A DNA stretch of 21,250 bases from Streptomyces roseochromogenus subsp. oscitans DS 12.976 (GTDB lineage: Bacteria > Actinomycetota > Actinomycetes > Streptomycetales > Streptomycetaceae). Location: positions 955,715-976,964 of the forward strand of contig NZ_CM002285.1 in assembly GCF_000497445.1 (NCBI RefSeq), in the 5' to 3' direction. This document shows positions 11,812-14,580 of this stretch, in pieces. The translations under genes and the position numbers were made by a program. The number at the start of each line of letters is the position of its first letter. The stretch's first letter is position 1. The notes under the pieces are model-generated. The model was not told the origin of the DNA and searched no databases. It was given only the letters and a program-made list of their open reading frames with translations.

Positions 11812-13446
11812 ATGCACGCTGATCTGCTGTTCACCGACGGCCCCGTCCTCACCTCCGGGGGACCCGAGGGCCGTACCGCGACCGCCGTCGCCGTCACCGG
11901 CGGCCGTATCACCGCCGTCGGCGGCGACGAGCTGCGCGACCTGGCCGGTCCGGGCACCGAGGTGGTCGATCTCGCCGGGCGGCTGCTGCTGCCAGGCTTC
12001 CAGGACGCGCACGTCCATCCGGTGCCGGCGGGGCTGGAGTTGGCCCAGTGCGATCTGTCCGGTACGCCGACGGCCGAGGAGAGCGTGGCCGCCGTACGGG
12101 CGTACGCCGACGCCCATCCGGAGCGGGAGTGGATCCTGGGCGGCGGCTGGTCGATGGAGGCGTTCGCGGGCGGGACGCCGACGAAGGAGCTGCTGGACGC
12201 GGTCGTACCGGACCGGCCGGTGTATCTGCCGAACCGGGACCATCACGGCGCCTGGGTCAACAGCCGGGCGCTGCGGCTGGCGGGCATCGACCGGGACACG
12301 CCCGATCCGGCCGACGGGCGGATCGAGCGGGACGCCTCCGGCGAGCCCAGCGGCACGCTTCAGGAGGGTGCGATGCAGCTGGTCGGCCGGCTCACCCCGC
12401 CCGCCACGCCGGCCGACCGGCTGGCCGCGCTGCTGCACGCCCAGCGGCATCTGCACGCGCTCGGCATCACCGCCTGGCAGGACGCGCTGGTCGGCGACTT
12501 CCTCGGCATGGACGACCCCGCCGAGGCGTATCTCGCGGCGGTGCGGGACGGTTCGCTGACCGCGCGGGTGGTGGGCGCGCTGTGGTGGGACCGGGGCCGC
12601 GGAGCCGAGCAGATCCCCGAACTCGTGGAGAAGCGGGCGGCGTTGAGCCAGGGACGGTTCCGGGCGGGCACCGTGAAGCTGATGCTGGACGGGGTCGCCG
12701 AGAACGGCACGGCGGCGCTGCTCGACCCCTATCTGGACCGGTGCGGGTGCGCGACCGCCAACCGCGGCAAGAGCTTCATCGATCCGGCTCAACTTCCCAA
12801 GTACGTCACCGAGTTGGACGCGCTCGGTTTCCAGTGCCACTTTCACGCGCTGGGCGACCGGGCCGTACGCGATGCGCTGGACGCGGTCGAGGCGGCCCGT
12901 GCCGCGAACGGGCCGGGCGACACCCGGCCGCATCTCGCACATCTGCAGGTCGTGCACCCGGACGACGTGCCCCGGTTCGCGCGGCTCGGCGCGACCGCGA
13001 ACATCCAGCCGCTGTGGGCCGCGCACGAGCCGCAGATGGACGAGCTGACGATCCCCTTCCTCGGGCCCGAACGGGCCGCCTGGCAGTACCCGTTCGGCGC
13101 GCTGCTGCGCTCGGGGGCGCGGCTCGCCGCAGGCAGTGACTGGCCGGTGAGCAGTCCCGATCCGCTCCAGGGCGTCCATGTCGCGGTCAACCGGATCGAG
13201 CCGGGCGGCACCGGACCGGTGTTCCTGCCCGAGGAGCGGCTCGGCCTCGCGGACGCGCTGACGGCGTACACGGCCGGATCGGCGTACGTGAACCATCTGG
13301 ACGACACCGGCCGGGTGGCCGTCGGGGCGCTCGCCGATCTGGTGGTGCTGGACCGCGATCCGTTCGCCGGACCGCCGGAGGAGATCGCGGAGACGGGCGT
13401 GGCGCTCACCTACGTGGACGGGGAGCGGGTGTACGACGCCGGGTGA
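11812..13446 (+). CDS. YtcJ-like metal-dependent amidohydrolase
   Basis: A 544-residue amidohydrolase_3 (PF07969) enzyme with a TIM barrel plus small beta-sandwich. The metal-binding H67-x-H69 is in PGFQDAHVHP. Further likely ligands are H343 or H345 (CHFHALGD), H377 or H382 (HLAHLQVVHPDD) and D443 (AAGSDWPVSSPDP). Such enzymes hydrolyse C-N bonds, often formamides or cyclic amides; the natural substrate of YtcJ-type members is mostly unknown. ATG 11812 has AGGAAAGG four bases upstream, and only 18 bases separate it from the permease stop. The stop TGA (13444-13446) lies one base before the left end of the MITE-like element, which now separates it from the convergent GlxA-type gene. Confidence 0.9.
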   Translation: MHADLLFTDGPVLTSGGPEGRTATAVAVTGGRITAVGGDELRDLAGPGTEVVDLAGRLLLPGFQDAHVHPVPAGLELAQCDLSGTPTAEESVAAVRAYADAHPEREWILGGGWSMEAFAGGTPTKELLDAVVPDRPVYLPNRDHHGAWVNSRALRLAGIDRDTPDPADGRIERDASGEPSGTLQEGAMQLVGRLTPPATPADRLAALLHAQRHLHALGITAWQDALVGDFLGMDDPAEAYLAAVRDGSLTARVVGALWWDRGRGAEQIPELVEKRAALSQGRFRAGTVKLMLDGVAENGTAALLDPYLDRCGCATANRGKSFIDPAQLPKYVTELDALGFQCHFHALGDRAVRDALDAVEAARAANGPGDTRPHLAHLQVVHPDDVPRFARLGATANIQPLWAAHEPQMDELTIPFLGPERAAWQYPFGALLRSGARLAAGSDWPVSSPDPLQGVHVAVNRIEPGGTGPVFLPEERLGLADALTAYTAGSAYVNHLDDTGRVAVGALADLVVLDRDPFAGPPEEIAETGVALTYVDGERVYDAG

Positions 13447-13447
13447 C

Positions 13448-13615
13448 CTAGGGGGTTTTGTCTGGATCAGCCCGGGTCCGCGACGCCCGGCACGGCACCT
13501 CGCCGCGTTGTCGGACCACCCGAGTACGCCCAGTACGCGGGTGCTCCTCCGCCTTGCGATGCACCGCACCGGACGCCGCGGCCTGATCCGGCCTGATCCA
13601 GACGAAACCCCCTAG
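13448..13615. mobile_element. 168-bp fold-back MITE-like element with about 31-bp terminal inverted repeats, bounded by CTAG
   Basis: The ends 13448-13478 and 13585-13615 are inverted repeats matching at 28 of 31 bases; both start CTAGGGGGTTT and continue GTCTGGATCAG. CTAG at each end is either the duplicated target or part of the repeat. The interior also matches its own reverse complement in patches, including a central hairpin ACCCG (13518-13522)/CGGGT (13538-13542), so the whole element folds back. There is no ORF for a transposase, so it would need one in trans; an IS5-family transposase is my guess from the CTAG target and GGGGGTTT-type ends. It sits between two convergent genes, contains the stop codon of the GlxA-type gene at its right end, and may now act as their terminator. 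Confidence 0.75.
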
Positions 13616-14580
13616 CGGGTCTGCTGGAAGGTCCGCCGGTACGCCTGCGGGGACACCCCGATCGCCGCGTGCAGGTGCTGGCGCAGCGAGGCACCGGTGG
13701 CGAAGCCGACCTCGGCGGCGATCCGGTCCACCGGCAGGTCGCTGGACTCCAGCAGATGCCGGGCGCGGGCGACGCGCTGCTGGATCAGCCAGCGGCCGGG
13801 ACTGAGGCCGACCTCGTCGCCGAAGCGGCGGGCGAACGTGCGCAGGCTCATCCGGGCGTGGCCGGCGAGATCGGTGAGGGTGAGCGGCTCCTGGAGGCGC
13901 TCCAGGGCCCAGGCACGGGTCGCCGCCGTGCTCGCCGCGCCGCTTTCGGGGACCGGCTGTTCGATGTACTGAGCCTGGCCGCCGTCCCGGAACGGCGGGA
14001 CGACACAGCGGCGGGCGACGGCGTTGGCCAGCTCGCTGCCATGGTCGGTGCGGACGATGTGCAGGCAGATGTCGACGCCGGAGGCGGCCCCGGCCGAGGT
14101 GAGCATGCGGCCGTCGGCGACGAACAGGACGTCCGGGTCGAGGTCGACCCGCGGGAAGCGGCGGCGGAATGCATCGGCCACCTGCCAGTGTGTGGTCGCC
14201 CGGCGGCCGTCGAGCAGGCCGGCCTCGGCGAGCACGAACGCGGCCGTGCAGATCGAGACGATCCGCGCGTCCGGGCGGATCCGGGCGAGGGCCGCGGTGA
14301 CCTCGTCCGGCAGCTCCGTGGGGATGTATGCGGGCGGCATCGAGGTGACCACGACCGTGTCGGCCGTGTCGAGGATCTCGGGGCCGTGTGCGACACCGAT
14401 TGTGAAGTCGGCGTTGGTGCGCACCGGGCGGCCGTCGACCGTGCAGGTCAGGACCTCGTAGTGGCCGTCGGCGGCGCCGAGGATCCGGCTGGGGATGCCC
14501 AGCTCGAAGGGATAGACGCCGTCCAGGGCCAGGACGGCCACCCGCTCGGGGCGCCGGGTGCGTAGCTGGACATCTGCCAT
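13612..14580 (-). CDS. GlxA/FtrA-type regulator: DJ-1/PfpI-like domain fused to AraC HTH
   Basis: A 322-residue transcription factor. Residues about 12-185 are a class-I glutamine amidotransferase-like fold, with C111 in the nucleophile-elbow position (IVSICTAAFVLAEAGLLDGRRATTHW). It is normally non-enzymatic in this family and serves ligand sensing or dimerisation. Residues about 215-320 form the two-HTH AraC domain (LTLTDLAGHARMSLRTFARRF, PVDRIAAEVGFATGASLRQHLHAAIGVSPQAYR). ATG 14580 has AGGA seven bases upstream. It diverges from the MDR oxidoreductase gene over 71 bases that contain a TGGCA-N4-TGCCA palindrome. Its stop TAG (minus strand 13614-13612) lies in the terminal CTAG of the MITE-like element. 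This protein group includes AdpA, but nothing indicates this is AdpA itself. Confidence 0.92.
   Translation of the reverse strand: MADVQLRTRRPERVAVLALDGVYPFELGIPSRILGAADGHYEVLTCTVDGRPVRTNADFTIGVAHGPEILDTADTVVVTSMPPAYIPTELPDEVTAALARIRPDARIVSICTAAFVLAEAGLLDGRRATTHWQVADAFRRRFPRVDLDPDVLFVADGRMLTSAGAASGVDICLHIVRTDHGSELANAVARRCVVPPFRDGGQAQYIEQPVPESGAASTAATRAWALERLQEPLTLTDLAGHARMSLRTFARRFGDEVGLSPGRWLIQQRVARARHLLESSDLPVDRIAAEVGFATGASLRQHLHAAIGVSPQAYRRTFQQTR

Follow-up and report, generated by a model that had tools for sequence, protein, structure and literature searches.

The window analysed here, a stretch of 21,250 nucleotides from Streptomyces roseochromogenus subsp. oscitans DS 12.976, contains two convergent genes, one encoding an amidohydrolase (Amidohydro_3 domain, E 9.9e-106) and the other a GlxA-type regulator with DJ-1/PfpI and HTH_18 domains, that are separated by a CTAG-bounded fold-back element of 168 bp (Table 1). 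The two terminal arms of this element, 31 nt each and 106 nt apart, are complementary at 28 of 31 positions (90%). The CTAG copies at its borders occupy positions 13448-13451 on the left and 13612-13615 on the right. The amidohydrolase TGA (13444-13446) is separated from the left CTAG by the single base C13447, and the TAG stop of the regulator is the complement of 13612-13614. An earlier, sequence-only reading of this DNA had described an element of this length with terminal inverted repeats (TIRs) of about 31 bp and CTAG at both ends lying between convergent genes, the right CTAG supplying the regulator stop and the left one following the amidohydrolase stop after one base, and the coordinates bear out both points. 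The 168 bp between the two genes hold no transposase gene. Because a class of these elements that starts with A still sits in C-TA...TA-G, we read the target as CTAG and the duplication as TA; judged by these borders, the element proper is of 162 bp (13451-13612) and the duplicated bases are the TA inside C-TA-G.

Table 1. The element and its neighbours in the window (positions counted from the first base of the window).
Feature	Position	Strand	Evidence
Whole element with both CTAG ends, 168 bp	13448..13615	.	96% identical full-length copies in S. echinatus (G016); 154/168 positions identical in S. canus plasmid copy
TA, left target-duplication copy (C-TA-G)	13449..13450	.	C before left TA in 57/64 and G after right TA in 58/64 resolved copies, no flank bonus
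TA, right target-duplication copy; with 13612 forms the regulator TAG stop	13613..13614	.	
Left terminal inverted repeat	13448..13478	+	28/31; first 22 nt with 2 differences from IS5-family end
Right terminal inverted repeat	13585..13615	-	28/31; first 22 nt with 1 difference from same IS5-family end
Conserved hairpin core; structure kept on - strand via G-U pairs	13480..13580	-	
Amidohydrolase (Amidohydro_3), left neighbour, TGA stop	11812..13446	+	
GlxA-type regulator (DJ-1/PfpI + AraC-type HTH), right neighbour, TAG stop from element boundary	13612..14580	-	

The interior of the element had also been described as partly self-complementary, and we found that the fold lies far below those of shuffled sequences on both strands. 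The predicted energy of the 168 nt is -107.3 kcal/mol on the + strand and -127.5 kcal/mol on the - strand, which corresponds to z-scores of -9.9 and -12.5, respectively, with 0 of 200 shuffles as low and the - strand folding best. A search of positions 13200-13900 against Rfam returned as its best result one match (E 0.33, 19.6 bits, for a gathering score of 70), and no family fits.

The sequence-only reading had called for a search for other copies in Streptomyces genomes, and such copies are widespread. In our survey of this genus 131 of 150 genomes match; because scoring stopped at 5 candidates per genome, the copy numbers are minimum values. Furthermore, 62 of 72,556 plasmid records match, including the S. 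canus plasmid copy of Table 1, and the phage records searched with the element gave no match. S. echinatus CECT 3313 (G016) contains 23 matches to the ends (at most 3 mismatches) and no fewer than 11 paired elements with lengths of 168, 196 and 229 bp, as well as one 58-bp form without the core; further copies are found in genomes G146, G064 and G117. The own genome of the window holds one full copy only, together with two diverged copies of the core that have other ends.

We found ends nearly identical to those of the element in insertion sequences (ISs) of the IS5 family. Streptomyces sp. WAC 04229 carries the 22-bp end CTAGGGGGTTTCGTTTGGATCA, on whose inner side comes the 3′ end (C-terminal part) of an IS5-family transposase gene; the left and right ends of the window element differ from this 22-bp end at 2/22 and 1/22 positions. 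Among the ten plasmid IS loci that we fetched, three are 0.9-kb ISs with CTAGGC(C/A)GTTTCGTTYGGATCA at both ends, and in a damaged IS of G117 the sequence CTAGGCGGTTTCGTTTGGATCA adjoins a PF13340 match. The likeness of these partner ISs to the element is confined to the ends; the core is absent from them and their interior is unrelated. The search for an IS with the same ends, also proposed in the sequence-only reading, was thus answered in other species with nearly the same ends and not in the own genome, where neither a pattern search nor the inspection of 24 PF13340 places yielded an IS with matching ends, so that the partner is either now absent from this genome or was missed.

On these grounds the window element is classed as a MITE: it combines terminal inverted repeats, a target-site duplication and a short length without a transposase gene with dispersed similar copies in other genomes, and it has its ends in common with an IS found in other species and not in its own. 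The suggestion that the element is of a mobile type is accordingly upheld by the copies elsewhere, by the near-identical IS5-family ends and by the comparison of occupied and empty sites given below.

Several variants were seen among the copies. Forms of 58-59 bp that consist of the two end repeats only occur at L055, L061, L072, L148, L154 and L180 (L072 and L148 are possibly one place), and in the two of these inspected by eye the core has been lost and short direct repeats (CGGA or TCCG) flank the gap. G-rich hairpins of 28-33 bp (TGGGGGTACC...GGGGGAG type) are nested in the stem of L058, L064, L069 and L071 in G016, of L052 and L057 in G117, and of L331 and L339, which looks like the insertion of a further, REP-like repeat into the MITE. 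The two core copies in the own genome, L380 and L381 (C1:8971633 and C1:8549673), bear ends of the GGCCCTGTCGTCA and GGGCCTGTCCGAC types, and one of their arms contains additional hairpins.

Orthologous loci give a direct view of the site. In G146 the same two genes, 96-98% identical, are adjacent without the element, and the site reads TGACCTTCAGCGGG where the window has TGAC[CTAG...CTAG]CGGG. The alignment of loci lacking the insert, which had been named as a check, therefore yielded an adjacent pair without the element, with CTTCAG at the place where CTAG was expected. G373, G302, G349 and G290 are likewise without the element at this site. The regulator stop is TGA in the five nearest empty sites that we read (TCAGCGGG on the + strand), whereas it is TAG in the window; since the window TAG stands at the same codon as the TGA of the relatives, the end of the regulator protein is unchanged, and the claim that this gene was left intact holds down to its last codon. 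The further claim that insertion used a stop-carrying CTAG and duplicated it is supported in part. CTAG is the target in the family, but the duplication comprises only TA, and with TGA at the five nearest empty sites a ready TAG as the landing place is conjectural here. Either a 2-bp change would first have made a CTAG, or the insertion would have been imprecise.

In G254 an empty CTAG serves as the regulator stop at this site. In G380 (L374) a different MITE, with CTAGGCCCTGTCGTCAAA ends and a truncated core, lies in the same regulator stop, and the site has apparently been hit twice. Further genes separate the two neighbours in other relatives, among them some that are as close (G033, G020 and G117; 90-93% identity). 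A deletion scar, considered when the genes were found about 1-14 kb apart in the first relatives, was set aside as the wider sample has adjacent pairs without the element; the relatives at 90-93% identity with an intervening gene remain beside it. An immobile spacer or terminator of ordinary kind, formed at this very site, would agree with the single full copy in the own genome, but the dispersed near-identical copies, the ends in common with ISs and the relative without the element make this explanation extremely improbable.

The target site was studied in 120 loci, which are the best-scoring places of the Streptomyces survey with several per genome. Ends were fixed by inverted-repeat alignment with TA outside and the next base unweighted, and both could be fixed in 64 of the 120 fetched loci (one of these, L307, is probably misplaced). 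Among these resolved copies the left TA has a C before it in 57 cases and the right TA a G after it in 58, and the first base of the element is G in 50, A in 12 and C in 2. With G or A in this position, TA and the first base together form a TAG or TAA stop. We found, using a codon-usage gene finder, that such a boundary stop ends a neighbouring gene in 46 of the 64 resolved copies, and stricter thresholds kept it in 44, 38 and 35 copies. Counted by facing 3′ ends, 48 of 86 have a boundary stop (39 TAG and 9 TAA), and the genes that end in this way are long ones, with a median of 282 aa. Reading frames that extend into the element were seen for 2 of the 86 facing genes. Simple truncation by random insertion was rejected on this last count, since about two thirds of the facing genes would then read into the element. 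The gene finder was custom-built and Streptomyces-trained; set against the annotation of 13 plasmid loci, it found 23 of the 38 stops and called 2 others.

Because demanding an intact TA favours copies whose TA serves as a stop, we recounted docking on all loci with the ends placed by similarity, and found that 69 of 120 Streptomyces copies supply the stop of a neighbour. As background we took the CTAG sites outside elements in 0.96 Mb of Streptomyces sequence: of 153 sites, 50 are at stops, 89 are intergenic and 14 are in genes, where CTAG is scarce given that genes make up 81% of this sequence. The difference between docking and background is significant (p 5e-5, copies taken as independent). 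Copies from other genera were resolved in 16 of 52 cases, the other 36 being without resolvable ends; 13 of these 16 have a boundary stop and 6 of them supply the stops of both convergent neighbours. In annotated plasmids (NCBI), a small sample with an incomplete gene table, the boundary stop is present in only 4 of 13 loci (15 fetched).

These counts bear on the possibility that the element is a passive MITE, whose position at stops reflects the distribution of CTAG only and whose core is kept by descent and by replication errors that correct palindromes. The concentration of CTAG at stops and its scarcity in genes are what this explanation would predict, and the plasmid rate equals the CTAG background; docking on the fetched chromosomal loci, however, exceeds that background.

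Borders that are no longer CTA, seen in copies outside the 64 resolved ones (within L221-L340), are mostly CCA (27) or CTG (12). The CTAGG border looks as if it were drifting to CCAGG, a change that presumably resembles the outcome of very-short-patch repair.

The gene context of the elements is also skewed. Convergent contexts are more frequent at elements than at non-genic CTAG sites (28/63 versus 25/127, p 5e-4), whereas divergent contexts are in deficit (5/63 versus 37/127). Over all 120 loci, 51 are convergent, 53 tandem and 11 divergent, the remainder lying at an edge (4) or within a gene (1).

Between its changing ends, the family has a conserved hairpin core. This core of about 100 bp is common to elements with quite different ends: in a comparison of 34 loci and the window, with the ends compared ungapped, L221 and L239 agree at 94% of core positions and at 22% of the first 18 end bases, and for the window and L237 the corresponding figures are 93% and 22%. 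We aligned the cores of 69 of the 120 loci with that of the window (A1; removal of near-duplicates, odd lengths and low scores had reduced the set to 72, of which three were left out), and made a second, hand-chosen alignment of 39 of these loci and the window (A2). Over 70 aligned cores, the stem cells that are not Watson-Crick pairs comprise 352 A-C on the + strand, equivalent to G-U on the - strand; only 24 cells are G-U on the + strand, and 130 are mismatches. Over 40 rows, 94.3% of the cells of the named structure form pairs. Two-sided changes affect 19 of 39 pairs (10.1 when shuffled) and 104 cells (29.3 when shuffled), with 0 of 500 shuffles as high; one control of this covariation count leans to the named structure, because that structure came from the window's fold and the arms. 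On the first alignment RNAalifold returned only 7 pairs. The internal loop of the core is nearly invariant, and the tip varies and covaries.

A covariance model of the core found it, within the class, in 39 of 148 genomes at E 0.001, which represent 17 of 81 genera, with at least 27 copies in one genome. Across the phylum at E 1e-5 it is found in 7 of 198 genomes, six belonging to the genus of the window and one lying outside the class. Among the matches listed, many of the copies in other genera have inverted ends and CTAG-like borders, and most have the same internal-loop motif. On a core tree of 58 loci and the window, TIR class changes 13 times, for a minimum of 9 and a shuffled mean of 39.1, and the ends appear to be mostly inherited together with the core and not freely exchanged. 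Well-supported branches nevertheless force at least two origins on 4 of 10 end classes, the base of the tree being poorly resolved. That TIR class mostly tracks the tree is in line with a passive MITE. The presence of the core in 16 other genera, with the internal loop mostly kept in the copies listed, argues against it, as does the fact that correction during replication predicts perfect pairs and not conserved wobbles on one strand, and we consider a purely passive element rather unlikely.

Another explanation is that the core acts as a bidirectional or one-way transcription terminator, or as a 3′-end stabiliser, that is useful to the host, with docking selected as a transcript ending. The hairpin is very stable, elements adjoin stops, and the excess of convergent and deficit of divergent contexts would follow; the avoidance of promoters alone, however, yields the same orientation pattern. 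Furthermore, no U-run was seen by eye past the window hairpin, and the strand that bears the wobbles is unbiased with respect to the direction of the docked gene (27 versus 21, p 0.47) or of tandem genes (31 versus 22, p 0.27). A strand-specific terminator was rejected for this lack of orientation bias, and a host-serving role at transcript ends in general seems to us doubtful. We infer, with modest confidence, that selection maintains the core as a folded strand, of either RNA or single-stranded DNA, which works for the element and not for the neighbouring gene; this role is favoured over a host terminator because the fold of the core is one-stranded, yet its strand is not tied to the direction of the docked gene.

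Our preferred explanation, to which we assign a probability of about 0.8, is a non-autonomous IS5-type MITE, targeted to CTAG with duplication of TA, that rebuilds stops, is selectively retained and, more tentatively, carries a self-serving core. An IS5-family transposase of the PF13340 type would insert the element in trans at CTAG and duplicate the central TA. As nearly all copies start with G or A inward from either end, TA and this base would read TAG or TAA, and a gene that formerly ended in C-TAG would retain its stop, whichever strand it is on. Insertions elsewhere would be purged by selection, and the survivors would pile up at stops and between convergent genes; this accumulation would be expected because CTAG is scarce in genes and frequent at stops and because other insertions are selected against. 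The core could act, for example, in the recognition of a folded strand during mobilisation. This explanation is built on the observed copies, ends, target and stop positions and on one occupied/empty comparison, for which transposition in trans, with selection as a filter, would account. Counting against it are the own genome, in which neither a partner IS nor a second full copy was found, the TGA of the nearest relatives, the relatives with genes between the two neighbours, the plasmid loci, the 36 of 52 copies outside Streptomyces whose ends could not be fixed and, as regards the core, the lack of bias of the wobble strand towards the docked gene.

A wider scenario can be offered tentatively, as possible rather than probable. 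An ancient, non-coding mobile hairpin may be common to the actinomycetes, with a core that outlasts its ends. Its TIRs would be exchanged in the course of time to suit whichever IS5-type transposase was active, its core would fold on one strand into an RNA or single-stranded DNA signal required for its own spread, and its TA-plus-purine borders would turn stops into safe places to land, including a 4-bp CTAG shared by two convergent genes.

The stop-rebuilding border offers a concrete rule for harmless entry into a compact, gene-dense genome, in that a mobile element restores the stop that it hits. The ends required by the transposase are separable from the interior, which would be expected to drift freely; in this family it is conserved better than the ends. 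Functional cores in non-autonomous elements thereby become testable, and the family can be used to mark where convergent genes end in actinomycetes. In the open-access literature, with most subscription journals outside its scope, we found no description of the family, which is weak evidence of absence; within the same scope, neither the stop-codon rule as a property of a family nor a covarying core under unrelated actinomycete ends was found.

Among known systems, the IS5-family ISs of the PF13340 (DUF4096) type, for which we take IS427 to be the subgroup name, resemble the window element in their ends (20 and 21 of 22 bases) and in the CTAG boundary; the window element differs from them in having no transposase gene and an unrelated interior. 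MITEPsy1 of Pseudomonas syringae, an element of 100 nt with 18-nt inverted repeats, duplicates CTAG or YTAA, possibly derives from the IS5-family ISPsy2 and is present in six copies in the strain studied (PMC3189936). It is like the window family in its IS5-type link and CTAG duplication, and docking at stop codons is absent from the part of its description available to us (PMC3189936). The MITEs of Haloquadratum, like the window element, resemble their transposon at the terminal repeats only; they differ in being archaeal, and a core conserved under different ends is absent from the available part of their description (PMC3119063). Short MITEs are further represented by the Correia/NEMIS elements of Neisseria, whose NEMIS RNA folds, and by the pneumococcal RUP, which is mobilised by an IS transposase; these belong to other hosts and are likened here by their description and not by sequence (PMC2229807). 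MITEs tied to IS5-type ISs with CTAG duplication, and MITEs that are IS-like only at their ends, are thus already known. A different system is formed by the REP/BIME palindromes, which are extragenic, carry a GTAG/CGTC tag and are associated with RAYT transposases of the Y1 tyrosine type. The window element shares with REP/BIME a conserved imperfect hairpin and an extragenic position, but it has the ends of a DDE-type IS and a TA duplication, which speak against its membership in the REP/RAYT system.
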